This document shows positions 56,546 through 62,361 of a stretch of 64,000 nt of DNA, one piece after another. The stretch is from Synechococcus sp. BIOS-E4-1 (lineage in GTDB: Bacteria > Cyanobacteriota > Cyanobacteriia > PCC-6307 > Cyanobiaceae), in the NCBI RefSeq assembly GCF_014279995.1, contig NZ_CP047935.1:2935494-2999493 (forward strand), written 5' to 3'. Positions within the stretch are counted from its first letter, which is position 1. Every line of letters starts with the position of its first letter. The notes under the pieces were generated by a model. It had not been told where the DNA came from. It searched no databases and was given only the letters and a program-made list of their open reading frames with translations. The translations under genes and the position numbers were made by a program.

Positions 56546-58435
56546 ATGCCGACACTTAAAGGGCATTTAATTTCTGGCGACCAAGGCTTCAAAAGCAGAG
56601 ACGTCAAACTTTACGAAATCCCAGACACTCCGCTCGAAAAACCCAAGTTAATTGCATCCACATCAAGCAATTCAGGAGGCCTATTTGAGTTCTATGGAAT
56701 CAACATTTCGCCCAAGAATACGTATTATATTTTAGCTTCAGATGGCTCCAACAAACTCCTGGGGCTGTTGCAAAGCAACGACACCCAGGGACTAACAATC
56801 AATGACCTCTCAACCGCTGCGAGCGCCTATACATTCAATCGATTCATCAATGGAGAGGGCCTGACCGGCAACAAGCCTTCACTTCGCTCAGGCTGGATGA
56901 CCTACCAAAACCTGGTCAATCCGAATGGAACCATCGATCAAGTTGCACTTAACAATGCCGCCACTGCTGAGCGGCTTAATTTACTGGCCAATCTCAATGC
57001 AGAAGCAATCTCCAATCCCGCATTCCGGAAGATACTTTTAAATCTCACATCTTCAATCGAAAGAGAATCGAACCAAACTAATCTCGAAGCCCTCATATCA
57101 ATCGGACAAAGCCCTGCCAACAACGCAAGGCAACTCTTTGAACTGGCCGAATCCGCCCCAGCCATTTATCCCGCAGACAGCTGGAGTATTTCCCAACGCG
57201 ACTCCTGGCTTCTGTATTTCGAGCACTTTGGAGCAGCCGATGAATCAGAGTCCATCTTTTTTGGACCGGGAAATATTGCAATTGACAGCCATGGTGATCT
57301 CTGGATTGCCAACAACTTCAAACCTGGATCCGAACAGTTTGACCCCCCACTTCCAGGCACCACCTTGCCTCGATTGAAACCCAGCGGGGAATTGGTCGGA
57401 GGCGAACCTTTACAAGGCGGTGGCCTCTATGGGGCAGGATTCGGGATCGGCATTGACCCCGAAGGTCAAGTATGGATCGGCAATTTCGGATTCGGAGCCT
57501 CGAACATTCCCCTGCGCGGCAACGGGAACAGTGTGTCGCTCTTCTCAAAGGAAGGCGAAGCACTTTCACCGAATCGATCACGGCGTGCACCCCGCAAGCC
57601 ATCCGGTGGTTACACCGAGGGCGAGCTGCTCGGCGTGCAGGGTGTAACCAGCGATCAAGAGGGCAACATTTGGATCGCCAGCTTTAGAGATACCGCTGCA
57701 ACGCCAAGCAAAATTGTGGTTTATGAAAATGGCCAACCGAAGAAATTTGACAGCTTCCAACACCCTGAGCTGACATCACCTTTCGATATTGCCATTGATG
57801 CCTCTGGGGATGCCTGGGTGAGCTACAGAAGTGGCGGTCGCAGCGGCCAGGGAGGGATTGGCCACTTCAGCTTCGACTCAAAGGATGGAATCAGACTGAT
57901 TCAAACGATTGAGTCCCGAGACCTGAATGTTCCCTTCGGAATTGCAACCGCATCGGATGGGAGTATTTGGGTCGCCAACAACGGTGGGCCTCCTCGCTAT
58001 AAATCCAGAACCGTATGCAAAATCGACCCGATCACCGGAGAAGTGGAAACATTCTCCATCAATGCATCAAAGGAATCGGGCCCTTGGGGCCTCAACCTTG
58101 ACGGCGCGAACAATGTCTACGTTGCCAACTTTGAAGATCTCTCCATTTCCGTGCTGAATGGATCCGGCGTCGATTCACTTTACGGTCATGAACCAGGCAC
58201 AGCACTCTCACCCGAGGGTGGATATGACTTTGACGGCAACATCATGCGTCCAACAGGGTTGGAAGTGGATAGTGCTGGGAACGTCTGGGTCGCCAACAAT
58301 TACAACGAAAAAGCTGACCTCTATGGCCAGCACAGCGTGTTTCAGGCCATAGGCCTTGCAGACCCAGTGAAGACGCCACTCATTGGCCCAGTGGAACCAC
58401 TGCTCTGGACAACAACGCCTCAATCTCTGGTCTGA
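56546..58435 (+). CDS. Seven-bladed NHL/Vgb-like beta-propeller protein
   Basis: 629 residues. Residues 1-75 look like a prealbumin-like sandwich (VKLYEIPDTP, SNSGGLFEFYGI); 80-200 are helical, including LTINDLSTAASAYTFNRFI. From about 235, seven units carry the pattern G/P-x-(I/L)-x-(I/V)-D-x-x-G-x-(L/V)-W-(I/V)-A-N (such as IAIDSHGDLWIANN and LEVDSAGNVWVANN), as in virginiamycin B lyase-like and NHL propellers. No signal peptide. Function unknown; propellers of this type bind ligands or act as lyases. Base composition is more AT-rich than ndhH, so it may have been acquired. Confidence 0.82.
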   Translation: MPTLKGHLISGDQGFKSRDVKLYEIPDTPLEKPKLIASTSSNSGGLFEFYGINISPKNTYYILASDGSNKLLGLLQSNDTQGLTINDLSTAASAYTFNRFINGEGLTGNKPSLRSGWMTYQNLVNPNGTIDQVALNNAATAERLNLLANLNAEAISNPAFRKILLNLTSSIERESNQTNLEALISIGQSPANNARQLFELAESAPAIYPADSWSISQRDSWLLYFEHFGAADESESIFFGPGNIAIDSHGDLWIANNFKPGSEQFDPPLPGTTLPRLKPSGELVGGEPLQGGGLYGAGFGIGIDPEGQVWIGNFGFGASNIPLRGNGNSVSLFSKEGEALSPNRSRRAPRKPSGGYTEGELLGVQGVTSDQEGNIWIASFRDTAATPSKIVVYENGQPKKFDSFQHPELTSPFDIAIDASGDAWVSYRSGGRSGQGGIGHFSFDSKDGIRLIQTIESRDLNVPFGIATASDGSIWVANNGGPPRYKSRTVCKIDPITGEVETFSINASKESGPWGLNLDGANNVYVANFEDLSISVLNGSGVDSLYGHEPGTALSPEGGYDFDGNIMRPTGLEVDSAGNVWVANNYNEKADLYGQHSVFQAIGLADPVKTPLIGPVEPLLWTTTPQSLV

Positions 58436-58560: not shown

Positions 58561-59034
58561 GTGATCTCAACACCCTTGATCATGTTGCCAGCCTGGCTCA
58601 ACCTCACCAGAACAGTGCGTTTCGGCGACACCGATGCTGCCGGCGTGATGCATTTCCATCAGCTGTTGCGCTGGTGCCATGAGGCATGGGAAGAGAGCCT
58701 GGAGCTCTATGGAATTGAAGCCAAAACGGTTTTTCCTGGATGTCGTGACCAAGAACGCTGGCCCGACACTGCACTCCCAGTGGTGCAATGCAGCGCCAAC
58801 TTCAAAAAAGCGGTGCATGGGGGAGATCGGCTCGTCGTAAGACTGACTCCACAACGGATTGATCAGGGATGTTTTGAAGTTCGCAGCCAATTTCTGCTGA
58901 ACGAACAGGAAGTCGCCAATGGCTTGATCAGACAGCTGGCCATCAATGTGCCAACGCGGCGACGCTGCCCGTTACCTGATGCAATCTCACGCTGGCTCGA
59001 GGCTGCAGAAATCGGACAAATCAAAGAACTCTGA
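58561..59034 (+). CDS. Hotdog-fold thioesterase, probable DHNA-CoA hydrolase
   Basis: About 157 residues. The 4HBT start RTVRFGDTDAAGVMHFHQLLRWCHEAWEESL (the D-x-x-G-x-x-H/F catalytic region, split here for length) matches the cyanobacterial 1,4-dihydroxy-2-naphthoyl-CoA hydrolase of phylloquinone synthesis, and menE-menC-menA lie 2 kb downstream, in support. GTG 58561 or ATG 58582 as start. Confidence 0.82.
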   Translation: MISTPLIMLPAWLNLTRTVRFGDTDAAGVMHFHQLLRWCHEAWEESLELYGIEAKTVFPGCRDQERWPDTALPVVQCSANFKKAVHGGDRLVVRLTPQRIDQGCFEVRSQFLLNEQEVANGLIRQLAINVPTRRRCPLPDAISRWLEAAEIGQIKEL

Positions 59035-59232: not shown

Positions 59233-59367
59233 ATGGATTTGAGAATTCTGATTGTGGCTTTGCCTATTCTTCTTGCCCTGAGCTGGGCAGCCTTCAACAT
59301 TGGCAGAGCCGCAACCAGCCAACTACAAATTGCGATTAAGCAATACAAAATCAACCAAACATACTGA
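59233..59367 (+). CDS. psbY: Photosystem II protein PsbY
   Basis: A 44-residue single-helix PSII subunit at the edge near cytochrome b559. From ATG 59233 it reads MDLRILIVALPILLALSWAA then FNIGRAATSQLQ; the MD-R-x-(L/I)-IV start and the (S/T)WA-x-(F/I)NIG block are the PsbY signature. It sits between the thioesterase and the ferredoxin genes. The frame extends upstream, but only this start gives the family protein. Confidence 0.88.
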   Translation: MDLRILIVALPILLALSWAAFNIGRAATSQLQIAIKQYKINQTY

Positions 59368-59514: not shown

Positions 59515-59895
59515 ATGTTCGACACCTCTGCGGCATTTACAGCATCTTCAGACGCTGAAACGACGTTTGACACTTCGGCTGCATTTACCGCACCGTCTCA
59601 CAACATCACGCCACCTTCAGGCCTGGAACCCTGCCTCGGCGGCGAACTGAGATTGCAGGCCATCTGGGTCGATGAAAAAGTGTGCGTCGGATGTCGATAT
59701 TGTGCCCACGTGGCAACGAACACCTTCCTGATGGATCAGGACACGGGAAAGTGCAGAGCAATTCGCCAAGACGGTGATTCAACCATGGTGATCAACGAAG
59801 CTATTGACACCTGTCCAGTGGACTGCATCCATTGGATCAGCTTCGAAGAATTGATTGAAAAGAAAAAGGAAGAAATGGCTAAAGCTGCCTATTAA
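59515..59895 (+). CDS. 4Fe-4S ferredoxin with repeated N-terminal leader
   Basis: 126 residues. The cluster ligands are Cys57, Cys60, Cys63 (CVGCRYC) and Cys100 (CPVDC), with AHVATNTF and EAIDTCPVDCIHWIS; this is the single-cluster 4Fe-4S type found in cyanobacteria and algae (in some algae fused to DnaJ domains). Residues 1-40 are extra and hold a direct duplication of FDTSAAFTA (2-10 and 18-26). The electron partner is unknown. It is tail to tail with the phycobilisome linker gene, five bases apart. Confidence 0.85.
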   Translation: MFDTSAAFTASSDAETTFDTSAAFTAPSHNITPPSGLEPCLGGELRLQAIWVDEKVCVGCRYCAHVATNTFLMDQDTGKCRAIRQDGDSTMVINEAIDTCPVDCIHWISFEELIEKKKEEMAKAAY

Positions 59896-59900
59896 ACAGC

Positions 59901-60635
59901 TCAGCCCACCACAAAAATACTAGTAAAGACTTTCACAATTCCAACAACAATCAATCCCGAAAGAATCACGAAGGATGGAATGATATAACGGAACGCCTTA
60001 TCCGAGGGTCTCTCATACAATACTTTCTCTGCGAACGACTTTGTAGGGCCGAAATTCAGGTGATCTTCAATTGACATCATCATGTCGTTTGAAGTTAACT
60101 TCTCTTGCCAATCGTAAGAATATCGCGGGAATTCCTGATAAACAGGGGCTTCACCAACAGCTCGGCCGGGCAAAACTCTTGACATCTCAAGAGGCACACT
60201 GTCGTAGCCAAACCTCTGCATGTACTCCTCACTGTTGAGGACCAGATCAACAAAAGTCTCGAATCCCTTTTCAGCAATGACGATCGAATAAGTTAACTTT
60301 TCGGTGTTATCTTTCACCTTGCGACCTAAAGCCCTGCCGATGACCTGTTCAACAAGGCGATAATTACTATTACAAGCAACATAACCCCGCAAAAAACGGT
60401 CCGAAAGCAACAGACCGCGAATGAAATCTCTTACCGTAATTGAACCATTTCTAAGCTGAGATTCAAGATAGCGATCTCTGTCGCTACTCATTGCATGAAA
60501 ATAGATCTGGCGATAACAACGGTTAATGACATCGCCAGCGTTATCAACAACATCCCCTTCCATGGAGGGAGCAGCAATTGTGCTCACACGAATATTTTGA
60601 GAAGCAGGTCGAAAGGGCCGAAGGGGAACTGGCAA
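59901..60635 (-). CDS. cpcL: Phycobilisome rod linker of CpcL (CpcG2) type with membrane helix
   Basis: 244 residues. The N-terminus (LRPFRPASQNIRV) and the PBS linker domain at about 15-145 (RQIYFHAMSSDRDRYLESQL, then RNGSITVRDFIRGLLLSD, SNYRLVEQ) mark the CpcG family. Residues 216-240 form one hydrophobic helix (YIIPSFVILSGLIVVGIVKV). CpcG1-type rod-core linkers lack such a helix; CpcL/CpcG2 use it to anchor phycobilisome rods to the membrane next to PSI. Length also fits CpcL (about 249 in Synechocystis). TTG start at 60635 keeps the conserved beginning. Confidence 0.82.
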   Translation of the reverse strand: MPVPLRPFRPASQNIRVSTIAAPSMEGDVVDNAGDVINRCYRQIYFHAMSSDRDRYLESQLRNGSITVRDFIRGLLLSDRFLRGYVACNSNYRLVEQVIGRALGRKVKDNTEKLTYSIVIAEKGFETFVDLVLNSEEYMQRFGYDSVPLEMSRVLPGRAVGEAPVYQEFPRYSYDWQEKLTSNDMMMSIEDHLNFGPTKSFAEKVLYERPSDKAFRYIIPSFVILSGLIVVGIVKVFTSIFVVG

Positions 60636-61095
60636 CGAAGAAACCCAGCAAAACTCAGAAAATTACACTAAGAGTTTGCCGATATGCCAGCGGGAAAAAC
60701 CGCAAACTAATTCACAATTCAGGCACCAAAACAGGGGGGTGAAATTAATTTGATACGCGCATCTGTGGCAAAGACAACGTTGCCTTTTGCTGCTTTCTTC
60801 TTGTGCGCGAATACACCGGGCAAGGTCAAGGCATCAGCCAAAGGCACTCGAGCAGATCACTGTCCAGGCCTGGGCGATTCTCGCCATCACGTCAAACGGC
60901 TTAACAGGCAGATTCATCGGCCATTCGGTTGAGCGCACCATTTGTCCCAACTTCACAAACATCCCAGTCTCCGGTGGATAAAACGGAGCAGATCCGCCTC
61001 AAGATTGACAGTGAAAATGCAACCAAGCAGCAAGGAAGTTCATCTCAGTGCAAATCCTTGCGGATGAATCTGGGATGAATCACTTCGGCACGGAT
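60636..61095. other. Intergenic region between cpcL-like and menE
   Basis: 460 bases in which I see no convincing gene. Two short plus-strand frames exist (60750-60932, 60787-60981) but lack family signs. The AT-rich part at 60655-60760 probably includes the promoter of the linker gene. The right part precedes the 3' end of menE. Confidence 0.6.
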
Positions 61096-62361
61096 TCAGA
61101 ACAGCTGAGCTGATGACTGAGCTGATTGTTGAGCTGTCAACCAGTTCTGCCATCGCGGACGCTCCCACTTCCCTGCTGCAGAGCATTGCAACTCCTGGCA
61201 CTGAACCCAGTAGAGAGGGCGTTCCGGTGCGGGCCAGTCGGACACCAATCTGTGCAAGCGGTCCCAACCGTCCGACGGCTCGTCCACCGACGACCAGCGA
61301 ACAAGAGCCACCAGACGTTGTCCCCATTCACGGTTCACCACCCCGAGCAACAGCACGGCATCAAGCGGTAACCCTTGCTTGCGAGCCTCCATCAGCAGTC
61401 TTTGCTCCAGTTGTGAAGGGAACACCGTGACCCCACCGGACTGGATGGCGTGATCGATTCGCCCCAAGAGATGCAGCTGGGGATCAGTTGATGAGCCTTC
61501 AAGTTCCGCCAGATCAGCTGAATGCCACCAACCGTCCCCATCCGACAATGCACAGAGCACCCCTGCATCATCCAGCCTGGCCACAGCTAACCGATTGCAG
61601 TGCACCGCCAGAGCGCCCTGCTGATTCACTCGCAGACGAACACCGTCAAGGGGGCGACCACAACCACCCATCCCCGCCAGAAAATCAAGCGGTGCCTGGG
61701 CCGTCACCATGGCGGCCGTCTCCGTCGCGCCGTAACAGGGGGCAAGCCTGATGCCCAGGTCGCGGGATTGATCGGCCAGCTCATCTGGCAATGCTGCACC
61801 CCCAACCCAGATCAGCGCCATCTCACATAACCAGGCGCGACCACAGGGTTCGGCCAGCAGCCGACGCAGTTGGGTGGGCACCAGCGACAGCACCATCGGC
61901 CGCTGTTGCCAGCCTGGATGGCAACGGCTGTGTTTGAGAAGTTGCGCCGGCTGTTTAATCAGAGCGGGCGAGATCCAGGCGTGATCTGCGCCCCACTGAC
62001 GGGCACGCCACCAGGGCATCAGACCGCTCACGTGCTGAAACGGCAGGGGGTTCCAAACCAGAGTTGAGGCTGGATCCAAGCCGATCGTCTTCAGCCACGA
62101 CCCGCAGGCCCGGGCAGAACGATCCAGATTCGACAGGGGATGGAGGCAGAGCTGTCGTCCGCCGCTGCTTCCACCAGTTGACAGCACCAGCCCTGGTCCA
62201 GGCGGCCAATCCAGGCCATCAGCATCCAGGACTTGCCGCTCAGGCTGAACTCCGGAACCGATCAGACGCACCCAAACCTGATCGGCCAGGGCCAGCTCGA
62301 GAGCAGCAGCAGCCTGACCAGGCTGAGCAGGGTCACAGTGCAGATCCCTCAGGCCAACCAT
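61096..62361 (-). CDS. menE: 2-succinylbenzoate-CoA ligase
   Basis: Activates o-succinylbenzoate in phylloquinone synthesis (the PSI A1 cofactor). 421 residues of an ANL enzyme: P-loop LSTGGSSGGR, FQHVSGLMPWWRA, CYGATETAAMV (the aryl-CoA ligase YG-x-TE) and a C-terminal lysine block AAGKWERPRW. Shorter than most MenE but complete. Its ATG overlaps the menC stop by one base. Confidence 0.9.
   Translation of the reverse strand: MVGLRDLHCDPAQPGQAAAALELALADQVWVRLIGSGVQPERQVLDADGLDWPPGPGLVLSTGGSSGGRQLCLHPLSNLDRSARACGSWLKTIGLDPASTLVWNPLPFQHVSGLMPWWRARQWGADHAWISPALIKQPAQLLKHSRCHPGWQQRPMVLSLVPTQLRRLLAEPCGRAWLCEMALIWVGGAALPDELADQSRDLGIRLAPCYGATETAAMVTAQAPLDFLAGMGGCGRPLDGVRLRVNQQGALAVHCNRLAVARLDDAGVLCALSDGDGWWHSADLAELEGSSTDPQLHLLGRIDHAIQSGGVTVFPSQLEQRLLMEARKQGLPLDAVLLLGVVNREWGQRLVALVRWSSVDEPSDGWDRLHRLVSDWPAPERPLYWVQCQELQCSAAGKWERPRWQNWLTAQQSAQSSAQLF

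Follow-up and report, generated by a model that had tools for sequence, protein, structure and literature searches.

The gene at positions 59901..60635 of the window, the 64,000-nucleotide stretch of the Synechococcus sp. BIOS-E4-1 genome analysed here, fits cpcGIII, a gene class recorded in 2007 (Six et al. 2007, PMC2246261), and on balance we favour the view that its product, CpcGIII, is one more membrane-anchored rod linker of the CpcL type, after CpcGII, which serves when iron is limiting and probably works at photosystem I (PSI). The class itself is known already; what looks new is the pairing with a ferredoxin gene, the iron context, and the anchor of CpcGIII together with its difference from that of CpcGII. 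The open-licence literature, covered mostly at title level, yielded for marine Synechococcus neither an anchored CpcG nor a cpcG gene associated with isiA or a ferredoxin gene, and the name cpcGIII turned up in one paper. The gene and its parts are as follows:

59901..60635, minus strand: cpcGIII, encoding a CpcL-type linker of 244 aa from a TTG start, stop codon included (ORF, Pfam, tree)
60189..60539, minus strand: PF00427 linker domain, residues 33-149 (Pfam)
59904..59999, minus strand: C-terminal hydrophobic segment, residues 213-244, a predicted membrane helix without the GxxExxR of CpcGII (hydropathy, AlphaFold)
60636..60800, minus strand: stretch upstream of cpcGIII with blocks conserved across eight orthologues, limits approximate

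The reading frame, on the minus strand, opens with a TTG at 60635 and closes with the stop codon at 59901; this TTG is kept at the same position in 8/8 close orthologues, and no ATG was found in the 30 bases 5' of it. The upstream stretch is probably the gene's own promoter and leader, and among eight orthologues cpcGIII is under purifying selection, with a dN/dS of 0.04 over the whole gene and of 0.06-0.10 in the helix. An earlier note, made from the sequence alone, had credited the protein with a CpcG start, a single linker domain and, at the C-terminus, one hydrophobic helix, which is the CpcL layout, and all of this was borne out: the CpcG-type N-terminus is present, a single PBS_linker_poly (PF00427) domain was found by Pfam (E 7.7e-35), and hydropathy and AlphaFold agree on the helix. 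The NCBIfam CpcG1-CpcG4 models were also tried as a means of naming the protein and proved unusable, CpcGIII scoring 121-132 bits against cut-offs of 420-440.

Three of the 13 PF00427 matches in the genome of the window (3.31 Mb, one contig) are of CpcG type: CpcGI, with a hydrophilic C-terminus; CpcGII, of 240 aa, predicted to be anchored and encoded within the rod gene region; and CpcGIII. The separate cpcG1 whose presence the earlier note had proposed to check therefore exists, in the form of the soluble CpcGI. The window gene is the third copy, away from both the rod gene region and the cpcGI locus, and in this it resembles the cpcGIII of Six et al. (2007), who distinguished the classes cpcGI, cpcGII and cpcGIII and recorded the last in BL107, CC9902, CC9311 and CC9605: there too it is a third copy outside the rod gene region, present in part of the strains and sharing the genome with cpcGI- and cpcGII-type copies. 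In contrast, the accessible text of that study (PMC2246261) mentions for it neither an anchor nor a function, nor a neighbouring ferredoxin or isiA gene. In our survey, CpcGIII occurs in 16/31 genomes of the genus of the window (g1), one truncated copy included, and in 17/34 genomes of a second genus (g5); the truncated gene, at a contig end in G027, enters the co-occurrence counts (33 genomes) and stands outside the 32 loci discussed below. Among 400 genomes of the family, no CpcGIII was found in other genera at E<=1e-62, and the lone outside match, in genus g25, covers the linker domain only.

The earlier note had doubted that the CpcL layout is a standard feature of marine Synechococcus, and this doubt falls because CpcGII has this layout throughout the genus, with a predicted anchor in 29/29 full-length copies from the 31 g1 genomes (G018 has no CpcGII match and G030 a fragment). 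Judged from the sequences, marine Synechococcus thus normally has an anchored CpcG, namely CpcGII, which may be the general CpcL of these organisms. The CpcGII of the window's genome (L039:14870-15592, minus strand) has long been listed as a rod-core linker, yet it has a hydrophobic helix with GxxExxR. According to PMC2246261, CpcGII went undetected by mass spectrometry in the phycobilisomes of four strains, having been seen earlier in WH8102, and its putative anchor offers a reason for its absence from the phycobilisome fraction of those four.

The hydrophobic C-terminus of CpcGIII is conserved across the class. In the window protein the Kyte-Doolittle hydropathy, averaged over 19 residues, is at least 1.7 at all starts from residue 213 and reaches 2.42, and the AlphaFold model (23 aligned sequences, mean pLDDT 68, pTM 0.52) has one helix at 212-241, with mean pLDDT values of 66 (residues 211-220), 84 (221-230), 82 (231-240) and 53 (241-244). 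For one sequence such a tail is an event of about 1%, since 218 of 20,000 shuffles of the window protein matched its hydropathy maximum, and it is the conservation across rows that makes it more than chance: the maximum is at least 2.06 in 30/30 CpcGIII rows, one per genome, row L124 being counted apart with 1.62 on account of its undetermined letters. The corresponding values in the genus of the window are at least 1.62 in 29/29 full-length CpcGII rows and at most 0.98 in 28/28 CpcGI rows. By sequence and model, CpcGIII thus has the C-terminal hydrophobic helix that is used as a CpcL criterion in PMC9415938. It is conceivable that the tail is no membrane anchor and that CpcGIII is soluble, a rod-core linker with its C-terminal helix packed on the phycobilisome core, a notion with which the roughly 1% of equally hydrophobic shuffles would agree, as would the fold, which matches CpcG chains as well as CpcL (Foldseek with the CpcGIII model retrieved both alike, CpcL 8hfq_n at rank 9). 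However, the tail is hydrophobic in every one of the 30 rows measured, the KVPYRS-type tail of CpcGI is missing from CpcGIII and the linker domain lies inside a clade of anchored linkers, and we hold a soluble linker to be very improbable. Neither the hydrophilic core-binding C-terminus of a rod-core linker (CpcG1-type) nor a grouping with CpcGI was found.

The grouping comes from a tree built on the linker domain only, with 122 rows and 189 columns. It includes 12 of the 28 CpcGI rows and omits repeat entries of the same locus, seven near-copies of other rows (six of CpcGII and one of CpcGIII), some Cyanobium rows and short, open-ended or weak rows of other families. The 30 CpcGIII rows form one clade (support 100/99) and, with CpcGII and Cyanobium-type anchored linkers, make up an anchored clade of 76 rows (100/99), which the CpcGI clade (12 rows, 100/99) adjoins. 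CpcGIII accordingly groups with CpcGII and apart from CpcGI, and the placement with CpcG1 that the earlier note had named as contrary evidence was not seen. Nine anchored linkers of other families are split between two further clades, one with a member whose best single-domain PDB match is the Synechocystis CpcL 8hfq_n and the other with a member that best matches the CpcL chains 9wd5, 9w4j and 9w7k; the solved CpcLs are placed here through these best-matching rows and are themselves absent from the tree. The CpcL reading of the earlier note stands as to layout, and a clade shared with the best matches of the solved CpcLs did not emerge; shared descent with the characterised CpcLs, which lies outside the published definition of CpcL, was not found. 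Since anchored linkers stand in three separate clades, three or more independent gains of the anchor are probable, or else repeated losses, and a similar conclusion was reached by another group, in whose account CpcL is mixed with CpcG (PMC10053587).

With the characterised CpcLs, Synechocystis CpcG2 and Anabaena CpcG3 (PMC10322944), CpcGIII shares the CpcG-type N-terminus, one PF00427 domain and a C-terminal hydrophobic helix, but its linker domain belongs to another clade and its helix is unrelated by sequence. In the alignment, R16, R112, R181, Y182 and F139 of Synechocystis CpcL are common to the window protein, and N55, Q57, Q58 and P137 are missing from it. F139 is among the residues that the authors of the Synechocystis work connect with a red-shifted bilin (PMC10322944), and a phenylalanine occupies this position in 29/29 CpcGIII, 30/31 CpcGII and 1/12 CpcGI rows.

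CpcGII is likewise an anchored linker and forms the clade nearest to CpcGIII, with 58% identity over 157 residues within the window's genome. The two differ in that CpcGII is encoded in the rod gene region and has GxxExxR in the helix of 31/31 rows, whereas CpcGIII is encoded elsewhere and an E..R within the last 30 residues occurs in 0/29 of its rows. Charged residues within a membrane helix usually have a reason, and because GxxExxR is found in the CpcGII helix only, CpcGIII and CpcGII probably meet different partners, or the same partner in different ways. Searches of the PDB with C-terminal pieces of one CpcGII and of CpcGIII returned one unrelated match each (E 0.34 and 1.3), and homology of the anchor with solved structures was dropped from consideration, the helix having no detectable relative there.

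In the window, cpcGIII is followed tail to tail by a ferredoxin gene, with 5 bp between the two stops:

59515..59895, plus strand: second Fed7-type single-cluster [4Fe-4S] ferredoxin (Fer4_13) (Pfam, tree)

A Fed7-type ferredoxin gene adjoins cpcGIII in 21/32 complete loci, in several genomic settings: it is convergent in 8/8 loci of the window's group, lies on the same strand directly downstream in 2/2 (G009 and G029) and in 11/17 loci of g5, and adjoins in 0/5 of the remaining g1 loci. In an unrooted ferredoxin tree of few columns (115), whose unlinked rows are a selection with duplicates, the 21 linked ferredoxins fall on one side of a branch (98/99) and 55 unlinked ones on the other. Over the 400 family genomes, a second ferredoxin match was present in 17/33 genomes with cpcGIII against 3/367 others, and within g1 and g5 the figures are 17/33 against 1/32. 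When one linked ferredoxin of g5 was used as query at E<=1e-46, a threshold of which the linked ferredoxins of g1 fall short, 11/400 genomes were matched, all of them with cpcGIII; ten of these matches adjoin the gene, and that of G322 is on another contig.

The neighbour ferredoxin has the Pfam domains and the five-cysteine CxxCxxC...CPVDC pattern of Fed7 (sll0662) of Synechocystis (PMC4284462). It differs from it in that the other Fed7-type copy of the window's genome, a separate gene, follows genes for DUF2997 and DUF1257, and in that the cpcGIII-linked copies form a group of their own. Because that other copy holds the place of fed7 in the DUF2997-DUF1257-fed7 cluster described in PMC4284462, the neighbour of cpcGIII is, on gene order, a paralogue and not Fed7 itself. 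Fed7 is required under iron limitation in Synechocystis and, with FTR and glutaredoxin, forms part of a redox pathway (PMC4284462).

In the window the pair of genes occupies an insertion site that is flanked on both sides:

58561..59034, plus strand: thioesterase (Pfam 4HBT_2), which we take to be menI-like, left flank of the insertion site
61096..62361, minus strand: AMP-binding enzyme (Pfam AMP-binding), presumably menE-like, right flank of the insertion site

The cpcGIII-ferredoxin pair lies between menI and menE in 7/28 genomes of the genus with menE; of the 21 genomes without the pair there, 20 have menI and menE in facing orientation no more than 1.5 kb apart (in G005, at a second menE copy). 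Nearness to ndhH, psbY and the phylloquinone genes was considered as functional evidence and rejected, since the pair sits at an old insertion site. Between the menI-like gene and the ferredoxin gene there is a small psbY gene (59233-59367, plus strand; PF06298, E 2.6e-14), and between ndhH and the menI-like gene a 629-aa NHL/propeller-repeat protein is encoded (56546-58435, plus strand), for which there is no space in most genomes with an empty site. On the opposite strand near cpcGIII, small proteins lacking any Pfam match are encoded (L119:4406-4822 and L120:4218-4529, both minus), one type upstream of the gene in 13 g5 genomes and another in some g1 loci.

Where no ferredoxin adjoins cpcGIII, isiA is frequently close by, lying at most 1.8 kb away in 6/11 such loci. 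Three of them (G208, G284 and G322) carry on one strand a solute-binding protein (Pfam SBP_bac families), which we take to be futA-like and of the iron-binding type, followed by ferritin, cpcGIII, a plant-type ferredoxin (petF) and isiA, and at the remaining three cpcGIII and isiA stand together with a gene for a small protein. Neither ferredoxin nor isiA adjoins cpcGIII in 5/32 loci, as judged over the approximately 4 to 24 kb searched around each locus; at one of these, in G024, isiA is 11.8 kb off. In the window's genome, where the ferredoxin gene does adjoin cpcGIII, isiA is 220 kb away. Further neighbours are psaL, which in three genomes of g5 lies 0.6-0.7 kb upstream of the cpcGIII-ferredoxin pair (e.g., L121:3915-4421, plus strand), and a flavodoxin gene 2.4-2.5 kb upstream of cpcGIII in four genomes. 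The model behind the isiA calls, TIGR03041, represents a wider family, Pcb proteins included. Its matches are called isiA here because of the organisms concerned and of PMC9124967, in which isiA is reported in all CRD1 strains and IsiA is described as a known extra PSI antenna under iron limitation.

The presence of cpcGIII and isiA agrees in 57/65 genomes of the two genera (both 30, cpcGIII only 3, isiA only 5, neither 27; Fisher p 4e-10, kinship ignored). With the set restricted to the 43 genomes that are at least 90% complete, these counts become 20, 0, 4 and 19 in the same order (Fisher p 1e-8, kinship again ignored), that is, isiA is present in 20/20 with cpcGIII against 4/23 without it. 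One g5 genome, G279 (98% complete), has isiA and a single CpcG match, of CpcGI type, and seems to be without both anchored linkers. Kinship was taken into account by independent pairs on a tree of CpcGI and CpcGII covering 59/65 genomes, on which each gene needs 13 changes; 6.1 pairs changed in the same way against 0.7 (median p 0.07), and 5.8 against 0 in the reverse test (median p 0.03), so that the association survives the correction, at modest strength. A scan for Fur sites with the E. coli consensus was not discriminating, the scores being 9-11 of 19 upstream of cpcGIII and 11-12 upstream of isiA.

An ordinary spare CpcL with no tie to iron, found together with isiA because both genes collect in the same open-ocean lineages, would account for a layout like that of CpcGII, for the frequent changes of the two genes and the modest outcome of the kinship-corrected test, and for the five loci without an iron or ferredoxin neighbour. 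It fits poorly, however, with two kinds of linkage, a distinct ferredoxin clade at 21/32 loci and a nearby isiA at six others, and with a helix unlike that of CpcGII in 29/29 rows, and we consider it unlikely, though not negligible. Less probable still, in our estimation, is that CpcGIII anchors rods at NDH-1, PSII or some other membrane partner that is not PSI, in the service of cyclic electron flow or energy spill-over, with the ferredoxin serving NDH-1 or redox signalling. The helix without the GxxExxR of CpcGII would suit such a partner, as would the NDH-PSI supercomplexes with CpcL rods (PMC10322944) and the redox pathway of Fed7 (PMC4284462), but isiA at six loci and psaL in three genomes are neighbours that point to PSI.

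A rod linker at PSI is the reading that we prefer. Against it weigh the five loci where neither the ferredoxin gene nor isiA adjoins, the remote isiA and the insertion-site setting in the window's genome, the modest kinship-corrected association, the four CpcL residues missing from the window protein, a helix that has neither the CpcGII motif nor a PDB relative, and the Fur scan. In Synechocystis, CpcL keeps a rod without a core attached to the membrane and the energy of the rod goes to PSI, and NDH-PSI supercomplexes include CpcL rods (PMC10322944). An accessory rod antenna of PSI under iron limitation is the simplest reading for CpcGIII because it keeps company with isiA, genes for iron binding and storage, PSI electron acceptors and a Fed7-type ferredoxin, circumstantial genomic evidence that points to PSI as the partner. 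The linker domain would be seated in a rod's basal phycocyanin hexamer, and the C-terminal helix would tie this rod to the thylakoid membrane in the absence of the allophycocyanin core. Most likely, CpcGIII would put phycoerythrin/phycocyanin rods on PSI, or on a PSI-NDH-1 complex, when PSI is scarce, presumably on induction by iron shortage, with CpcGII serving as the general CpcL alongside it. Like isiA, and often a dedicated Fed7-type ferredoxin gene, cpcGIII would then belong to the accessory genes with which some lineages meet iron-poor water. More tentatively, one may picture an iron-stress rod antenna of PSI in Synechococcus of such water, in which CpcGIII-anchored phycoerythrin rods would stand beside the IsiA ring, separate from the general CpcGII system, and the dedicated ferredoxin would be a PSI acceptor or a redox sensor.

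Much of the ocean is limited by iron, and PSI is the most iron-costly photosynthetic complex. If our reading is true, a phycobilisome-based counterpart of IsiA would give a primary producer of global importance another means of enlarging its PSI antenna, one that can draw on green and blue-green light, and cpcGIII, on record since 2007, would have a function.
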